DNA of 39,413 bases from a virus: the IMG/VR virus record IMGVR_UViG_3300021403_000029, positions 1-39,413 of that record. One strand, given 5' to 3'. Under the pieces are notes generated by a model. The model was not told the DNA's origin. It ran no database searches and worked only from the letters and a program-made list of their open reading frames with translations. The stretch's first letter is position 1. The number at the start of each line of letters is the position of its first letter. The translations under genes were made by a program, and so were the position numbers. Shown piece after piece: positions 4,866-39,413 of this stretch.

Positions 4866-5096
4866 TCAACCGATGGCTTCCCATTCGGCGAATGCTCGCC
4901 GCAGTTCGTCATCGTCGAACACGTGAGCTGTTCCCTCGGCCTGGCGTTCTAGCCACTCGCCTCTGTCCTCCTGGTCCCATACCCACCCCGACGCGCTTGC
5001 GTTGAAGCGGAGCCGGCTGATGATGTTGCGGGCGCGATACAGGCGGACCAGCGTACGGATCGGGTCGTCCAGGGGCACGGTAGGCTGTGACTGCAT
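4866..5096 (-). CDS. Small hypothetical protein
   Basis: A 76-residue leftward protein from the ATG at 5096. It has an N-terminal helix with DDPIRTLVRLYRARNI, a middle W-x-W and DRGEW segment, and an acidic C-terminal helix (FDDDELRRAFAEWEAIG). I do not recognise the family. It is divergent from the portal gene, with the palindromic gap 5097-5239 between them, so that gap could carry its promoter. It lies 31 bases upstream of the other leftward gene. Confidence 0.5.
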   Translation of the reverse strand: MQSQPTVPLDDPIRTLVRLYRARNIISRLRFNASASGWVWDQEDRGEWLERQAEGTAHVFDDDELRRAFAEWEAIG

Positions 5097-5239
5097 GGCG
5101 AAGATTCCCCTTCGTTGTGCGAGGTGGCCCGGTCCGAGCGCGCACTGGACCGGGCCGCCGACTATACGCCACGCATGACGGACGTGGCGTGACTTCTCGG
5201 TCACGTGAGTTGACGGTCACGTTACACTCACGCTCAGCC
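5097..5239. promoter_or_regulatory. Divergent, palindrome-rich intergenic region before portal
   Basis: This gap separates a leftward gene from the rightward portal gene. It contains a perfect 10-bp stem, GGCCCGGTCC at 5126-5135 with GGACCGGGCC at 5147-5156. A perfect 8-bp dyad follows, ACGCCACG at 5166-5173 with CGTGGCGT at 5183-5190. A direct repeat CGGTCACGT occurs at 5198 and 5214, 16 bases apart. TATAGT on the minus strand (5166-5161) and TACACT on the plus strand (5223-5228) are possible -10 boxes. Regulatory roles are inferred from position. Confidence 0.55.
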
Positions 5240-7213
5240 GTGGCTGACGACCCACCGAGCTCGAGCTATCTCAGCGAGCTCCAGGCGGAGATGTACGACC
5301 GCTACCGGCGCGACGACGTCCAGATCGACACGTACCGCGCCCAGCGCGAGATGCGCGTCCCGGCGATGATGGGCGCCGACGACAAGTACACGCTGGTCAA
5401 CGTCGACCCCAGGGATCCAGACGTCAGCGAGGAAGCGTTTCAGCAAACCGCGATGCTGACCTTGAACCGCCCCAAGCTGCACCTGGACGGCGGCGAGAGC
5501 GACACGGCGCAGACCGCGGCTAGCCAGCGCGAGCACTGGACCGAGGAGACGTTCTGGGGCAGCGGCTCGCGGACGCCGGGCATGGACACCATGACGTTCC
5601 TGACCGACGCGGCGCTCAACGACGGTGGCGCGTGGAGCAAAATCCTGTTCCTGCCCGACGCCTGGGACAAACGTTACGCCTACCCGGTGCCGAATCCTGG
5701 CGAGAGCGTCGAGGCCTGGCAGCACTACGACAAGGCGACGGAGGACGCCAAGAAGCAGTGCGGGCCACCCTTTGCCTGGGAGTTCGTGGACGCGCGCACG
5801 ATCTACCCGGACACCATGGGCGGCAGAATCGCCGAGGTCATCGAGGTCACCGATCGACCGGTCAGGACCACCTTCCGCCGCTACCGCCTGGGCTACGACG
5901 AGGACGGCAACATCGTGCCTGAGGAGCTCGGCCAGCCGCAGCCATCCAACGCCTGGGGCGCCAACGGGCGGCCGATCCTGCCGACGAGCATCACCATGCT
6001 CGAGCACTGGGACGAGACGTGGGCGACCTGGTGCGTCACTGGTGAGAACTACAAGCGTCAGCCGACCGGCCACATTGTGAAGCAGTTCAAGCACAACTAC
6101 GGGTTTATCCCCTACGACTTCGCACCCGGGCTGTGGATGAACCACTGGCGTAACCGCAAGGTCGGCTGGGGCGTGTCGCAGACCAAGCTGTGGCTGGTGC
6201 AGTACCGGCAGTACCTGCGCGCCATGCATGCGCAATACGTGGCGAGAGACCTGCTCAGCCCGCTGGTGACCTATGGCGACAGTACCGCGGCGCCGGTCAT
6301 CGGCGACGACGGCAAGCCGCGCGATCGGGATCCGGGCCCGCTGCCGGGCGAGGTCATCAACCTGGGCCCAGGGCGGCAGATGCAGCCGATCAAGTACCCC
6401 GACGCGGCCACGCTCGAAAAACACATGCAGCTGATCGACAACGCGATCAAGGAGCTCGAGTCGCCCAGAGTCACGACGCTGTCGGGCATGGAGGGCGCCG
6501 GCTTCGCGATCAGCCAGGTGCTTAGCTACTCCCGCACGCGCGTGGGCCCGATCGTCAACAACATCCAGGAGCTCCTCAAGCGGCAGACCGAGAAACTGTG
6601 GGACCTGGCCCAGAACAAGGTCCAGGAGAAGATCTGGGTCGGGTATAGCGGCCAGGACGTCAAGGGTGGCAGCGGCTGGATCGGGCTCGGGCCCGACGAC
6701 TTCGCGCGGCCGGTGCGCATCCGCTGGGACGTGCAGCAGGAGCTGCCGACCGACGACCTGATCAAGGCGCGCTACGCGCACGAGCGGCTGCAAGCCGGCA
6801 CCTGGGGCTCGGACGAGGCGATCGAGTACCTGGGCGACAATCCCGACGAGATCCGCAGGTCCAAGGCGCGCGACCGTATCCGCCAGTCGCCCGAGTACCA
6901 GAAGTGGCTGGACGAGCAGGTGTTCCAGTTCGCGGGCCGCGGCGACATTCTTGGGGCCGCGGCTCAGGCGCAGGCCATTGCGGCCAAGGTGCAGCCGACG
7001 ATGGGCAACATGGGACCCGGTGGCCCGTTCGCGCCACCCAAGCCGATGGCGCCCGGCGTCTTTGAGGGCGGCGGCCCAGGTGCAGGCGGGGTCCCGGACC
7101 TGGCCGCGCTCGCCACCGCGCCCAACGGGGTGGGGGCTCTGCCACCGCCGGGGCAGCAGGTCATGCAGGGCGCAGCGCAGAATGTCGGCGCACCAGGTGC
7201 AGGAGGTATGTGA
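5240..7213 (+). CDS. Portal protein
   Basis: About 657 residues from a GTG at 5240 (an in-frame ATG at 5291 is the alternative; no strong ribosome site decides). It sits after the terminase pair, has the usual size of a P22-type portal, and begins with the tyrosine-rich helix Y-x3-RDDVQIDTYRAQREMR. It continues with a wing/stem region and ends in a G/A/P-rich tail after about residue 570. Portals form the dodecameric ring through which DNA enters and leaves the capsid and to which the tail docks. The assignment combines position, length and overall character; no catalytic motif exists to test. Its stop overlaps the next ATG, which has AGGAGG upstream. Confidence 0.8.
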   Translation: MADDPPSSSYLSELQAEMYDRYRRDDVQIDTYRAQREMRVPAMMGADDKYTLVNVDPRDPDVSEEAFQQTAMLTLNRPKLHLDGGESDTAQTAASQREHWTEETFWGSGSRTPGMDTMTFLTDAALNDGGAWSKILFLPDAWDKRYAYPVPNPGESVEAWQHYDKATEDAKKQCGPPFAWEFVDARTIYPDTMGGRIAEVIEVTDRPVRTTFRRYRLGYDEDGNIVPEELGQPQPSNAWGANGRPILPTSITMLEHWDETWATWCVTGENYKRQPTGHIVKQFKHNYGFIPYDFAPGLWMNHWRNRKVGWGVSQTKLWLVQYRQYLRAMHAQYVARDLLSPLVTYGDSTAAPVIGDDGKPRDRDPGPLPGEVINLGPGRQMQPIKYPDAATLEKHMQLIDNAIKELESPRVTTLSGMEGAGFAISQVLSYSRTRVGPIVNNIQELLKRQTEKLWDLAQNKVQEKIWVGYSGQDVKGGSGWIGLGPDDFARPVRIRWDVQQELPTDDLIKARYAHERLQAGTWGSDEAIEYLGDNPDEIRRSKARDRIRQSPEYQKWLDEQVFQFAGRGDILGAAAQAQAIAAKVQPTMGNMGPGGPFAPPKPMAPGVFEGGGPGAGGVPDLAALATAPNGVGALPPPGQQVMQGAAQNVGAPGAGGM

Positions 7214-7404
7214 TGGCAAGCAAGTCAGGTGGCTGGAGCCCGCCGTCGGGTCGTGAGCATCCGCCGTTCAAGGGCGGACAGAAGACAAGCTCGGTGGGCA
7301 GTAATCACTGCGCCGGACCGATGACGAACAACGACACCAGTGGCGCGGGCAAGGTTCAGAGCAACGCTGTGACCCGACCGCCGCACGGCATCTCGACGAA
7401 GTAG
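7213..7404 (+). CDS. Small glycine/serine-rich protein
   Basis: A 63-residue protein with an ideal Shine-Dalgarno AGGAGG (7201-7206) six bases before the ATG. It is rich in G, S, K, N and T, lacks hydrophobic stretches and looks disordered. It lies between portal and the structural genes, so it may be a minor virion or assembly protein. No family recognised. Confidence 0.6.
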   Translation: MASKSGGWSPPSGREHPPFKGGQKTSSVGSNHCAGPMTNNDTSGAGKVQSNAVTRPPHGISTK

Positions 7405-32537: not shown

Positions 32538-34148
32538 GTGAGCGTCATCGACCTGCACACACGGCAACCCGTCGATGAGCGCCCAGGCGTCGTCCTGCTG
32601 CGCAATAGCACGCCGGGTCAGAAGGACAACGCCCGCTCAGTCAAGGCCGAAGAGGTCGCGCGCGCGCTCCTCATGTCGCTCGGCATCACGGTCGGCGCGG
32701 TGCTCGACGAGCAGGGCACCAGCGGCAAGGACCTCACCCGGCGCCCGGTGGCGCGGCAGTTGGTCGACGAGCTCCAGGCCGGCAAGTGGGCAGCCCTGGC
32801 GGTCATCGAAGTAAGCCGCACCTCGCGCGACCCCGACGGCGTCGATCAACGCATCTTCAAGCGAGCGTGCCGCCGCGGCCGTGCGCTCCTGGTGACCCCG
32901 ACGAAGTGCTACGACTTCCGCAACGACTCCGACGACCTGCAGTACGAGATGGAGTCGGTGCTCAGCGCCCGCGAGTGGCGCGTCCTTCGAAAACGGACAT
33001 GGGAGGGTAACGTCGAGCGCGCCCGCTTGCTGCCGGTGTTCTACGGCTTCGCGCCCTTCGGCTATCGCAAGGTGGCTGCAACCTACACCATCCGCGGCAC
33101 AACACGGAACGCGCTGGTGCTCGAGAAGGACACCGAGCAGGCCGGCCTCATGGAAGCCATCGGCGCGGCAATGGACGTCGAAGACGGCCTCAACGCAGTC
33201 GCATGGCGGCTCAACACCCAGGGCTGGCGGCAACCCAATGGGTCGCTGTGGTACTTCAGCCAGATCCAACAGGTGATCAAGCGGTCGTACTACCGCGGCC
33301 TCTGGACGCAGGGAGAGTACCGCGAGGCCAATGACCTCTACGAGATGGAAGGCGTTGAGCGGATTACCCATGAGCGCCCCGAGCTCGCGTGGTACACCGA
33401 AGAGCGCGTGGCGAAGTGGCAGCGCAAGTTCACGAGCAAAGGCCCGATCCGCGTGCGTCCGCAGGGCCACGACCACCCGGCGCTCGGCGTGCTGGTGTGC
33501 AGCCTCTGCCGTGGGTTGATGAACGGCCAGGGCGAGCGCGGGTATTGCTGCTCAAATCGGCGCGAAGGTCGCTGCAAGGGCCAGAACCTCAGTGATCTAC
33601 AGGCCAACGGCGCGATTCGTCGCTTGTTGGCCGATGTCCTGCCCGGCCTCGCCGACCTGACGCGCGAGGTGCGCGACGCGCTGACCTCGGACGCGCGACC
33701 CGACGACGCCGCCGAGTTGCGCGAGTTGGACCGCCAGATCGAGGCACGTTTCGAGGTCGCGACCGAAGCGAAGGCCAACGGCGTGCAGCCACCGTCGGGC
33801 TTCTATGCGAAGACCCACGACCTGCAGGAGCGTCGCGCCAGGCTCGCCGAGCGGATGGCTGACGTCGACCGCATCGAGTCTGAGCGACGCCGCCACATGG
33901 CCAGGCTGGCCGAGTTCAGCGACCCTGAACAGGCGCTGCAACTCTATGACGAGGTGATGACCACCGGCGAGCGACAGCAGTTCCTGGGCTACCTGTTCAA
34001 GTGGATCGTCATCGCCACCAACGGCGGTCGAGGTAACCGCGCCAGGGCGTGGGTGAGCGACTACGAGGCGACGTTCCCCAGCGATTTCAAGTCGGTTAGT
34101 GGGTTAGGTCCTTGGACCTTGTGGCTTAGCCGATTTGACGTCGCCTGA
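32538..34148 (+). CDS. int: Large serine recombinase (phage integrase)
   Basis: 536 residues from a GTG. The N-terminal resolvase domain has the nucleophile Ser24 in LLRNSTPGQ and the catalytic-site arginines around EVSRTSRDPDG (91-101). A recombinase domain follows (ALVLEKDTEQAGLMEAI, then LNTQGWRQPNGSLWYFSQIQQVIK-type repeats of the DNA-binding core). Next are a zinc ribbon at about 320-350 (C-x2-C ... CC ... C) and a long coiled coil (DLQERRARLAERMADVDRIE) of the integration-control type. It would join phage attP to a host attB. The ST in place of the common SS is within family variation. attP is expected nearby but cannot be recognised from one sequence. Confidence 0.9.
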   Translation: MSVIDLHTRQPVDERPGVVLLRNSTPGQKDNARSVKAEEVARALLMSLGITVGAVLDEQGTSGKDLTRRPVARQLVDELQAGKWAALAVIEVSRTSRDPDGVDQRIFKRACRRGRALLVTPTKCYDFRNDSDDLQYEMESVLSAREWRVLRKRTWEGNVERARLLPVFYGFAPFGYRKVAATYTIRGTTRNALVLEKDTEQAGLMEAIGAAMDVEDGLNAVAWRLNTQGWRQPNGSLWYFSQIQQVIKRSYYRGLWTQGEYREANDLYEMEGVERITHERPELAWYTEERVAKWQRKFTSKGPIRVRPQGHDHPALGVLVCSLCRGLMNGQGERGYCCSNRREGRCKGQNLSDLQANGAIRRLLADVLPGLADLTREVRDALTSDARPDDAAELRELDRQIEARFEVATEAKANGVQPPSGFYAKTHDLQERRARLAERMADVDRIESERRRHMARLAEFSDPEQALQLYDEVMTTGERQQFLGYLFKWIVIATNGGRGNRARAWVSDYEATFPSDFKSVSGLGPWTLWLSRFDVA

Positions 34149-36785: not shown

Positions 36786-36864
36786 CGACACGGTGCGTGT
36801 GGTGATTACCGTCGGCACGTTCATGATTTTGCTGGTGCTGCTCTTCACGAGGGCCGGCGCCTGA
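36778..36864 (+). CDS. Very small membrane peptide
   Basis: 28 residues from the ATG at 36778. A single hydrophobic helix (VVITVGTFMILLVLLFTR) makes up nearly the whole peptide. Its TGA overlaps the ATG of the PP-loop gene and its start overlaps the zinc-ribbon gene, so coupling supports translation. Function unknown. Confidence 0.45.
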   Translation: MTDDTVRVVITVGTFMILLVLLFTRAGA

Positions 36865-37613
36865 TGAGGGTGCTGTCGTTAGGTGCCGGTGTCCAGTCCA
36901 GCACGCTGCTCCTTATGACTTGCGAGGGCGAGCTCGAGGTCGACGTCGCGGTCTTTGCTGATACCCAATGGGAGCCGGCGGCGGTCTACGCTCACCTCGA
37001 GTGGCTCGAGTCCGTCAGCACGGTGCGGATCGAGCGTGTGACGCACGGCGACATCCGCGCGGACACCGTGGCAGCGACGCGCTTCGCGTCGCTGCCGTTC
37101 TACGTCCAGCAGACCACCGGCGCGCAGGGCATGGGCCGGCGCCAGTGCTCCAAGGAGTACAAGATTTACCCCATCCGTCGCTGGCTGCGCGACCACGGCG
37201 CGACGCGCACCAACCCCACGACGCTGCTCTTCGGCATCAGCCTCGACGAGCACCAGCGCATGCGCGACTCGGACATCCGCTACGCCATCCACGAGTACCC
37301 GCTCGTCGACCGTCGCATGACGCGCGGCGACTGCCTGCTATGGCTCAGTATGCACGGCTATCCGCAGCCGCCGAAGAGCGCGTGCATCGGCTGCCCCTAC
37401 CGGCGCAATAGCGAGTGGCGTAACCTGAGCCCCGCCGAATTCGCTGACGCTGCGGACTTCGACGCCGCGATCCGCCACCAGCGCGGCATGCGCGGCGAGC
37501 AGTTCGTGCACCGCTCGCTGACGCCACTACTCGAGGTCGACCTGCGCAACCAGCAGGACCGCGGCCAGCTCGAGATGTTCGAGGAGGACTGCGTGGGAGT
37601 GTGCGGCGTATGA
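36864..37613 (+). CDS. PP-loop ATPase (PAPS-reductase-like) with conserved cysteines
   Basis: 249 residues from the ATG at 36864. The N-terminal PP-loop is LGAGVQSS (residues 6-13), followed by VAVFADTQWEPAAVYAHLEWLE and RRQCSKEYKIYPIRRWLR (Cys95). SACIGCPYR (Cys174, Cys177) and a C-terminal DCVGVCGV (Cys243, Cys247) complete a set that could hold a metal or iron-sulfur site. This matches a family widespread in phages and bacteria annotated as PAPS-reductase-like or adenine-nucleotide alpha-hydrolase. True PAPS reduction is unlikely. The reaction is unknown; nucleic-acid modification is a reasonable idea given two DNA methyltransferases nearby. Confidence 0.85.
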   Translation: MRVLSLGAGVQSSTLLLMTCEGELEVDVAVFADTQWEPAAVYAHLEWLESVSTVRIERVTHGDIRADTVAATRFASLPFYVQQTTGAQGMGRRQCSKEYKIYPIRRWLRDHGATRTNPTTLLFGISLDEHQRMRDSDIRYAIHEYPLVDRRMTRGDCLLWLSMHGYPQPPKSACIGCPYRRNSEWRNLSPAEFADAADFDAAIRHQRGMRGEQFVHRSLTPLLEVDLRNQQDRGQLEMFEEDCVGVCGV

Positions 37614-38086
37614 CCGCGCGCGTGCCAGCGTTCGTGGCCGGCCTGGTGTGTGGCCTGGTGCTCGGCACCGCGGTCATCATCGGCCACGCCGACGACGTCA
37701 GCGCGGAAGTGTCGGAAGCCGCCGTCGCGGCACACGTCGACCCGACCGACCTCGCGGGCGCGGTCTCCACCACCGGCATGGACCCGTGGACCTATCTGCG
37801 CGCCGTCGGTGAGCTGGACCAGCCCGCACCCAGCTCGCCGCCGGCAGTCAGTCCCCGCGTCGCGTGCATCATCACCCACGAATCTCGGGGGGATGCGCAC
37901 GCGGTGAATCCGCGGTCCGGCGCCAGCGGCCTTGGGCAATTTCTACCTGGGACGTGGAAAACCACACCCCAGGGCCGCGCCGGACTGTCGGTGTTCGACC
38001 CTACCGCTAATCGCGCAGCCATCCAGTACATGCTCGCCGCGGGCCGAGCGCGCGAGTTCGACGCCGTGCGCTTCAGTGGGTGTTGA
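37610..38086 (+). CDS. Secreted SLT/lysozyme-like muramidase
   Basis: 158 residues; ATG overlaps the previous stop. Residues 8-26 form a signal or membrane anchor (FVAGLVCGLVLGTAVIIG). Residues about 85-158 are an SLT/resuscitation-promoting-factor-like domain: THESRGD with catalytic Glu91, AVNPRSGASGLGQFLPGTW, then a short C-terminal helix (RAAIQYMLAAGR). It would cleave peptidoglycan glycan strands. Its early-operon position, far from the membrane-protein cassette, is unusual for an endolysin. It may act during lysogeny or entry, or be the real secreted endolysin. Confidence 0.8.
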   Translation: MTARVPAFVAGLVCGLVLGTAVIIGHADDVSAEVSEAAVAAHVDPTDLAGAVSTTGMDPWTYLRAVGELDQPAPSSPPAVSPRVACIITHESRGDAHAVNPRSGASGLGQFLPGTWKTTPQGRAGLSVFDPTANRAAIQYMLAAGRAREFDAVRFSGC

Positions 38087-39138
38087 TGCTCCATGGGATG
38101 GCTCTTTGTGCCGGGGCTGGCGGACTCGAGCTCGGACTCAGAATCGCTCTCGGCGATGACTACCGCTGTGTGGTGTACGTCGAACGGGAAGCCTACGCAG
38201 CGGCCACCCTCGTGGCGCGGATGGCAGACCAGGCCCTGGATCAGGCACCTGTCTGGGATGACCTCAGCACCTTTGACGGCAGCGGCTGGCGTGGCGTCGT
38301 GGATCTCATGTCTGCGGGGTTTTCCTGCCAGCCGTGGTCGCCCGCAGGCAAACGCCTCGGCATCGAGGACGAACGCTGGCTCTGGCCCGACATTGATCGC
38401 GTCGTTCGCGAAGTTGGACCCGAGTGGGTCTTCTTGGAAAACGTCCCAGGGCTTGTTCGAGGGGGACTTGAGCACGTTCTGCGAGACCTGGCCGCGCAGG
38501 GGTTCGATGCGGAATGGGATTGCGTTTCGGCGTCCGAAGTTGGCGCGCCGCAGCTGCGCGAACGACTCTACATCCTGGCCCACCGCAACCCGCCAGGACA
38601 GTGCCTCGAGCGGAGGCAATCCGAATACCACCAATACGCATGGGACCACGCTGACGGACACTCGCGTCCGTCAGCCGCTCTGGACGACACCAACGCAGGA
38701 CGACGCCGGAGGACGGACAACGAAGTACGCCCAGGGCGGGACTGCCCTGGGCGTACAGGTGCTGTGGGCGACGCCCAACACGCAGGATGTCAGTGGCTTT
38801 CACCCGCTGCGGATGGACGGTCGAACCCCACAGAACCATGGTGCCAACCTGAAGGATCACGCAAGCGTTTGGGCGACACCGCAAGCCGAGGACTGCGAGT
38901 CGGGTGGAGGACCAGAGCAGACGTGCTTGACGAATCAGATAGTGCGTACTGGCCACCAGACCGACGGTTCCGAGGGGTGTGGCCGAGTGGCTTTGAACCC
39001 GCTGTTCGTCGAGTGGCTGATGGGATGGCCCCCTGGGTGGACCGACTGCGGCTCACCGGTAATGGAGTGGTGCCGCTGGCTGCGGCAGTCGCGTTTCTGC
39101 GCCTACGAGATCGCCTTTGCACGGGAGGATGTGAATGA
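38086..39138 (+). CDS. C5 cytosine-specific DNA methyltransferase
   Basis: 350 residues from the ATG at 38086 (GTG 38080 is two codons further up). Motif I is LCAGAGGLELGL (7-18). The catalytic motif IV is SCQPWSPAGKR with Cys81 (Ser replaces the usual Pro before Cys). Motif VI is ENV (119-121) and motif VIII QLRER (156-160). The N-terminal half is conventional. The region 165-300 holds repeated DDT/GDA/GDT units as in several phage C5 methyltransferases, and motif X-like LTGNGVVPLAAAVAFL closes the protein. It methylates cytosine C5 in a target not predictable here. Its 3' two thirds is overlapped in another frame by a second coding-like sequence. Confidence 0.85.
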   Translation: MLHGMALCAGAGGLELGLRIALGDDYRCVVYVEREAYAAATLVARMADQALDQAPVWDDLSTFDGSGWRGVVDLMSAGFSCQPWSPAGKRLGIEDERWLWPDIDRVVREVGPEWVFLENVPGLVRGGLEHVLRDLAAQGFDAEWDCVSASEVGAPQLRERLYILAHRNPPGQCLERRQSEYHQYAWDHADGHSRPSAALDDTNAGRRRRTDNEVRPGRDCPGRTGAVGDAQHAGCQWLSPAADGRSNPTEPWCQPEGSRKRLGDTASRGLRVGWRTRADVLDESDSAYWPPDRRFRGVWPSGFEPAVRRVADGMAPWVDRLRLTGNGVVPLAAAVAFLRLRDRLCTGGCE

Positions 39139-39151
39139 CCCAGGCCATTGA
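38093..39151 (+). CDS. Overlapping second-frame gene with W-x-T-P repeats (dual coding candidate)
   Basis: 352 residues open from the ATG at 38093 in the +2 frame relative to the methyltransferase; the true start may be internal (for example ATG 38156). From about residue 130 it resembles a family I know from phage methyltransferase neighbourhoods. The matching elements are GSSWKTSQGLFEGDLSTFCETW and GSMRNGIAFRRP, then four repeats beginning W at 38576, 38681, 38765 and 38870 (WPTATRQD, WTTPTQDD, WATPNTQD, WATPQAED), then LNPLFVEWLMGWPPGWTDC and MEWCRWLRQSRFC. Repeats and motif in an unselected frame would be surprising. Long spurious frames are common in GC-rich DNA, so translation needs proof. 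It overlaps the recT start by 17 bases. Confidence 0.5.
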   Translation: MGWLFVPGLADSSSDSESLSAMTTAVWCTSNGKPTQRPPSWRGWQTRPWIRHLSGMTSAPLTAAAGVASWISCLRGFPASRGRPQANASASRTNAGSGPTLIASFAKLDPSGSSWKTSQGLFEGDLSTFCETWPRRGSMRNGIAFRRPKLARRSCANDSTSWPTATRQDSASSGGNPNTTNTHGTTLTDTRVRQPLWTTPTQDDAGGRTTKYAQGGTALGVQVLWATPNTQDVSGFHPLRMDGRTPQNHGANLKDHASVWATPQAEDCESGGGPEQTCLTNQIVRTGHQTDGSEGCGRVALNPLFVEWLMGWPPGWTDCGSPVMEWCRWLRQSRFCAYEIAFAREDVNDPGH

Positions 39152-39413
39152 AAAAGCCGCGCCCCGCGTGTCGAACCTGGCCCAGATCACCGGGTTCAGC
39201 GACCGCGTCATCCAGCTCATTAAGCAAACGGTGGCGCCCAACGCCACGCCGCTCGAGCTCGCGGCGTTCCTGTTCAACGCGCGCCGTCTCGGGCTCGACC
39301 CGATGACCAAACAGATCTACTTCATCAAGTACGATCGCAACCGACCGGGCGAGATCGTCACGGGCATCGACGGCTACCGCGCCCGCGCCGAAAACAGCGG
39401 CGCCTACGCCGCC
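39135..39413 (+). CDS. recT: RecT/Bet-family single-strand annealing protein, N-terminal part
   Basis: N-terminal 93 residues; the gene continues at base 1 after circular closure (see entry 1-696). It starts at the ATG overlapping the methyltransferase stop (GAATGA). IEKAAPRVSNLAQ, ITGFSDRVIQLIKQTVAP and TPLELAAFLFNARRLGLDP are the usual beginning of RecT/Bet proteins, in which the last segment is the most conserved. The final base pairs read AYAA instead of AYAG because of one base difference from the start of the contig (39412 against 128). Confidence 0.85.
   Translation, partial: MTQAIEKAAPRVSNLAQITGFSDRVIQLIKQTVAPNATPLELAAFLFNARRLGLDPMTKQIYFIKYDRNRPGEIVTGIDGYRARAENSGAYAA
39286..39411. 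repeat. Right copy of terminal direct repeat
   Basis: Identical to bases 2-127. It encodes part of RecT in the same frame, so it closes the genome rather than duplicating a gene. The base after it differs from the left copy, probably an end-of-contig artefact or population variant. Confidence 0.9.

Follow-up and report, generated by a model that had tools for sequence, protein, structure and literature searches.

Does a single kilobase of phage DNA encode two proteins in overlapping reading frames, and if so, are they parts of one enzyme? The question is raised by one end of a 39,413-nucleotide viral sequence (positions 1 to 39,413 of IMG/VR record IMGVR_UViG_3300021403_000029; hereafter the window, meaning this whole stretch), where two frames of the same strand, here called alpha and beta, overlap and are open for 352 codons apiece. 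An earlier note, made from the letters alone, had pointed out that both frames exceed 350 codons, as they do, and had inferred either that both frames are under selection or that a frameshift joins parts of the two. Our comparison with relatives indicates that the kilobase is very probably a dual-coding gene for a nested, two-polypeptide split C5-cytosine methyltransferase organised like M.EcoHK31I, a reading for which there are no expression or activity data.

Content of the two overlapping frames

Alpha showed similarity to the C5-cytosine methyltransferase domain PF00145 in Pfam (E = 8.5e-31, residues 7-171), to phrog_363 in PHROGs (4.1e-54) and to HhaI (6e-12). Motifs I, IV (PCQ), VI (ENV) and VIII follow one another in the order that a C5-cytosine DNA methyltransferase requires. 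The earlier note had credited this frame with all of the C5 methyltransferase motifs; I-VIII and X are indeed there, but a motif scan of frame 1 found no recognisable motif IX in alpha. An IX-like element lies instead in frame +1, in a different chain from motif X in frame 0, and the alpha reading of the same DNA (38993-39046) is FEPAVRRVADGMAPWVDRL. By comparison, the canonical methyltransferase of Streptococcus phage CHPC1148, taken as a control, carries motif IX (LTPRECWRLQGFP) in the frame of the enzyme itself, and its +1 frame is broken by 11 stops.

The features singled out in frame 2 (four W-x-T-[PA] units, WKTSQ, GSMRNGIAFRRP and LNPLFVEWLMGWPPGWTD) were all confirmed in place. Searched on its own, beta matched the PHROGs family phrog_1008, annotated 'DNA methyltransferase' (E = 3.7e-28, residues 74-319), as did its relatives (1.6e-74 to 2.2e-29), and no match to the beta sequence was found in the PDB or Pfam. 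The suggestion that these motifs belong to a phage protein family thus held, but the protein is not an unrelated one and looks rather like the missing part of the same enzyme. Across 76 beta proteins, residues L301, P303, E307, L309, M310, G311 and P313 are invariant.

Predicted structures were uninformative on what the repeated W-x-T-P modules of beta do, because confidence was low where it mattered: an AlphaFold model of beta alone had a mean pLDDT of 54.5 and was mostly of low confidence, except for the motif-IX helix and a C-terminal helix, and in a naturally fused homologue (L236) the recognition region fell below 50. The catalytic half of the fused homologue matched HhaI and HaeIII (Foldseek 4e-14, about 186 columns). 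A sequence profile of the fused form aligns with HhaI over motifs I-VIII only, so the homology of the LNPxFVEWLMGFP element to canonical motif IX rests on position and pattern alone.

Table 1. Positions in the window of the two coding frames, their motifs and their starts.
Feature	Position	Strand	Basis or remark
Alpha CDS, C5-cytosine methyltransferase (frame 1)	38086..39138	+	PF00145, phrog_363, HhaI
Alpha alternative starts	GTG 38080, ATG 38098	+	sequence
Beta CDS, W-x-T-P modules and motif-IX-like element (frame +1 of alpha)	38093..39151	+	phrog_1008; kept in relatives
Dual start region	38084..38100	+	stop TGA of upstream gene (38084-38086) overlaps alpha ATG 38086; beta ATG 38093; second alpha ATG 38098
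Alpha motif I (CAGAGG)	38107..38124	+	sequence
Alpha motif IV with catalytic Cys (GFSCQPWS)	38317..38340	+	sequence
Alpha motif VI (ENVPG)	38437..38451	+	sequence
Alpha motif VIII (QLRERLYIL)	38551..38577	+	sequence
Alpha motif X (RLTGNGVVP)	39049..39075	+	sequence
Beta conserved block WKTSQ...GSMRNGIAFRRP	38435..38536	+	consensus SSWKTxx...TWPxWGxxRxG (76 beta proteins); WKTSQ at 38435, GSMRNGIAFRRP at 38501-38536
Beta module 1 (WPTA...), possible recognition module	38576..38680	+	W-x-T-[PA] unit
Beta module 2 (WTTPTQDDAGGRTTKYAQGGTALGVQV, WTTP at 38681)	38681..38764	+	same unit in L009, L010, L011
Beta module 3 (WATPNTQDVSG...)	38765..38869	+	W-x-T-P unit
Beta module 4 (WATPQAEDCES...)	38870..38992	+	W-x-T-P unit
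Beta motif-IX-like element LNPLFVEWLMGWPPGWTD	38993..39046	+	in-frame counterpart between VIII and X in L218, L227, L236

The starts of the two frames lie close together, both here and in the relatives. The beta ATG in the window is at -5 nt from the second alpha ATG, and in relatives whose beta begins at the alpha start it lies at +4 nt (66 loci), -5 (18) or -2 (6) from an alpha start codon. A Shine-Dalgarno-like core precedes the first ATG in 70 of 106 loci, compared with 22 in a control window. As only a few bases separate the starts here and in roughly a hundred relatives, one ribosome-binding site probably serves both frames. In genes of the Paenibacillus type, the beta start is internal, about 15 codons before PCQ.

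Upstream of alpha lie a PAPS-reductase-like gene (36864-37613, phrog_424) and then a small transglycosylase-like gene (37601-38086), the stop of which overlaps the alpha start (TGATG). Downstream, a RecT-family gene (39135-39413) begins at the alpha stop (ATGA overlap, 39135-39138), and beta ends 17 nt into it. The window also carries a large integrase gene (32538-34148, phrog_95), so the phage is probably temperate. Elsewhere, two long open frames occupy opposite strands of the same DNA (5087-7213 on the plus strand, 708 codons; 5234-7219 on the minus strand, 661 codons); against PHROGs, the plus-strand frame gives no more than a marginal match.

Conservation and selection in both frames

Searches of each frame against phages with tblastn returned overlapping places in the same records. 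In Synechococcus phages PP438429 and OM868082, for instance, the same gene is present and the frame annotated differs between the two records; most records examined annotate one frame only. Scans of viral sequences yielded 215 relatives for the beta of the window, at least 599 for that of an Acinetobacter phage and 60 for that of a Paenibacillus phage. The gene is carried by phages and by prophages from many phyla, and a relative of the gene of Salmonella phage S9-5 was found in only 4 of 5,426 E. coli genomes. Beta lies in the +1 frame of alpha in 228 of the 231 relatives first examined. Among 379 loci with alpha, 313 have an element of the form LNPxFVEWLMGFPxGWTD, together with the W-x-T-P repeats, in +1, and motif X is in frame 0; in seven loci, which are of the M.AquI type, both the element and X are in +1, and in five both are in frame 0. 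A few loci of this set are copies of one contig. Beta was the route to most loci, which inflates the proportion whose beta is intact; this bias weighs less on the codon-position tests and on a set of 78 loci retrieved with a query mainly of alpha type. In the latter set, the repeats are in +1 in 74 of 78 loci, and the median open length after PCQ is 217 codons in alpha, 204 in +1 and 6 in +2.

Taken alone, the open beta frame of the window is a weak signal and its motifs a moderate one: the gene has 64% GC, and when alpha was shuffled synonymously, the beta frame stayed open in 2.6% of shuffles, at least four W-x-T-[PA] units arose in 0.06% and the motif-IX-like pattern in 0.24%. The comparison with relatives is decisive. 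The earlier note would have been refuted by homologues in which frame 2 is interrupted by stops while frame 1 is kept, and 166 of 168 annotated relatives have no frame-2 stop over the core. The other refuting outcome that it named, a frame 2 without database matches of its own, is contradicted by the match to phrog_1008. In 136 non-redundant genes, set against synonymous shuffles that keep the amino acids of alpha, there were 2 beta-frame stops compared with 303 expected over motifs IV-VIII, 0 compared with 174 over the recognition region and 0 compared with 55 over motif IX. Shuffles that keep the amino acids of beta gave the corresponding figure for alpha, which has 33 stops over the recognition region and IX where 510 were expected. 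Alpha is open throughout these parts in 121 of 126 genes (4.4 expected), and beta is open upstream of IV-10 in 117 of 135 (57 expected).

Substitutions divide between the frames along the gene. In 52 disjoint pairs, with no locus shared (earlier pairs for the codon-position and four-fold-site analyses were not independent), most of them fall at the third codon position of alpha over motifs I-VIII, as seen in 49 of 50 pairs, and over the recognition region most fall at that of beta (49 of 51 pairs). Divergence at four-fold sites in pairs 85-98% alike was 0.217 in flanking genes; in alpha it was 0.038 in the N-terminal part, 0.083 over IV-VIII, 0.015 over the recognition region and 0.008 over IX (in these two parts 4-7% of the flanking level), and 0.162 past the conserved part of beta. 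The recognition region of the window is 70, 51 and 58% identical to its three nearest relatives in beta, compared with 55, 35 and 41% in alpha. Judged by stop depletion, the codon-position pattern and low four-fold-site divergence, both frames are constrained, alpha mainly in I-VIII and X and beta mainly in the recognition region and IX. Selection in two frames, as inferred in the earlier note, is therefore supported by the stop depletion and by the codon positions at which substitutions occur.

Variant forms of the gene and other explanations

Natural variants bring the parts of the two frames together in other ways. In three loci (L218, L227 and L236) and in Gordonia phage Derg, the repeats (W-x-T-P or LPTP) and an LNPxWVExLMGFP element stand in the frame of alpha between VIII and X; beta-like remnants persist in the +1 frames of all four, so at least some of these single-frame forms look like fusions created by frameshift mutation. 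In a second group (L187, L216, L220, L222, L292 and mycobacteriophages Peaches, Artemis2UCLA and Dylan), the alpha chain goes no further than VIII, and the recognition region, IX and X are all found in beta, an arrangement like that of M.AquI. The fused and AquI-like variants imply that beta is the missing part of the same enzyme.

Adjoining or overlapping pairs of 'DNA methyltransferase' genes in Peaches, Artemis2UCLA, Dylan and Ovechkin (L389-L391, L394) resemble one split enzyme, and the second gene, read in frame +1, contains LPTP modules together with IX and X; in Peaches, beta-like sequence reaches upstream of the annotated start. Two further loci (L190, L207) are frameshift variants with the motif-IX-like element in the frame of alpha and X in +2. 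Both frames are listed, unexplained by the annotators, in such mycobacteriophage pairs and in Paenibacillus phage Diva, as a 'g49 internal gene'. We found no text linking either to one split enzyme family, and a paper on P. larvae phages does not discuss the internal gene.

The order of parts along the gene, I-VIII in alpha, recognition region and IX in beta and X again in alpha, is that of a single chain, and programmed frameshifting could in principle produce one long enzyme by a +1 shift into beta after VIII and a -1 shift back before X. The occurrence of single-frame forms fits such a scheme, as do three relatives (L024, L025 and L027) that retain X despite 12-14 alpha stops between VIII and X. 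It would, however, need the second frame only downstream of the shift, and would need no open alpha across the recognition region, whereas beta is nearly free of stops over IV-VIII and alpha is strongly depleted of them between VIII and X. Beta also has an ATG of its own, beside the alpha start or about 15 codons before PCQ. Since the beta frame is already open well before any point where a shift would be of use, and alpha is open across the recognition region, the frameshift offered as an alternative in the earlier note is disfavoured, and we consider it improbable as the main mechanism.

The same three relatives, together with L009, L011 and L056, nevertheless count against the split enzyme that we prefer. 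All six carry alpha stops (2 to 14) between VIII and X and have I-VIII, X and the whole of beta intact, and a continuous alpha gives no explanation for this. Motif X may be reached in them by re-initiation or by a shift out of the beta frame; decay of the gene is another possibility.

Beta might also be a genuine overlapping protein with another job, such as anti-restriction or regulation, unrelated to the catalytic cycle. Viral overlapping genes frequently have unrelated functions, and beta has no solved relative. We hold this to be less probable still, as the fused forms place the beta segment in frame exactly where an enzyme of this class would need it, between VIII and X; moreover, alpha lacks motif IX, and the last element of beta resembles motif IX, with beta running on into X in some phages. 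That frame 2 merely shadows frame 1 in a gene rich in GC, as its chance of staying open in shuffles of this one gene and the single frame annotated in most records might suggest, can scarcely be maintained and was rejected on the stop depletion over 136 genes and the third-position pattern of beta in the recognition region and IX, with the low alpha-synonymous divergence there also against it.

A probable split enzyme with a modular second chain and its known counterparts

In a split methyltransferase of this kind, alpha would supply SAM binding, the catalytic PCQ and ENV motifs, VIII and X, and beta would supply what usually lies between VIII and X, namely a target-recognition region, seen as the row of W-x-T-P modules, and motif IX. 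The translation of the recognition region in alpha would then amount to hardly more than an open linker, allowing ribosomes to continue to motif X. From adjacent starts, probably fed by a single ribosome-binding site, the two chains would be predicted to come together as a single enzyme, with phage DNA as its substrate and protection against host restriction as its probable purpose. The placement of the motifs and the clustering of the starts are observed; that both proteins are made, that both are needed and that they assemble is inferred, as are cytosine methylation, contact between modules and target, and the anti-restriction role. For the making of both chains and the need for both, selection in the two frames gives indirect support.

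Cutting beta at W-x-T-P gave 1,012 modules from 332 loci, with 1-8 per protein and a median length of 37 amino acids. Fifty-six clusters of modules occur in at least four loci each and together hold 842 modules, whose positions in the row vary. In 75 pairs, the modules are at least 80% alike in DNA and the adjoining catalytic halves less than 60% alike in protein; examples include modules 80-86% identical beside catalytic halves 40-59% identical. The pattern resembles the outcome of module exchange. Recognition domains stand in tandem in multispecific phage C5 methyltransferases (PMC8936443), which makes recognition units the natural interpretation of the modules, although this is inferred from position and there are no specificity data. 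A further step, for which we see about even chances, is that beta is a shufflable cassette of recognition modules in the second frame: phages would swap modules while keeping both frames open, re-targeting or stacking specificities against restriction with the catalytic half unchanged, and two starts separated by a few bases would be served by one ribosome-binding site.

A widely distributed family of phage genes seems to hold both halves of an enzyme within a single stretch of DNA. It offers a rare overlap that can be read codon by codon, with the catalytic half selected in one frame and the recognition half in the other, and its clustered starts provide a simple system for two-frame output. 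If the modules are recognition units, they constitute a natural parts list for cytosine-methylation specificity. The family also changes where the recognition domain should be sought in enzymes like M.EcoHK31I.

The small chain of M.EcoHK31I is encoded within the gene of the large chain, in another frame. Motifs I-VIII and X lie in the larger polypeptide of this enzyme and motif IX in the smaller, and the recognition domain was predicted to be part of the large chain (PMC3404938). The window shares this layout with M.EcoHK31I (and M.EaeI), having I-VIII and X in alpha and IX in beta, so the principle is not new and a precedent exists for what the earlier note had believed undescribed. Our literature search, which left most subscription papers outside its reach, found no description of such a phage system. 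Unlike the smaller chain of M.EcoHK31I, the beta open frame of the window is as long as that of alpha; in the phage family, moreover, the recognition region is selected in beta, beta is modular and often starts at the alpha start, spanning the whole gene, and the gene occurs in both phages and prophages, across many phyla. M.AquI has I-VIII in its alpha chain and the remaining variable region, IX and X in its beta chain. The window resembles it in the functional cut after VIII, and the AquI form itself occurs in the second group of variants above, but in the window X is in the alpha frame and beta is nested in alpha. With the multispecific Bacillus phage enzymes (SPR, H2 and kin), the window shares a tandem arrangement, its four W-x-T-P units between VIII and IX being recognition units only by inference from their position; those enzymes are single chains in one frame, whereas the units of the window are in frame +1 and are without specificity data. 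What appears to be new is how broad the family is, that its recognition region is assigned to beta and is modular, and that nested, AquI-like and fused forms occur side by side.
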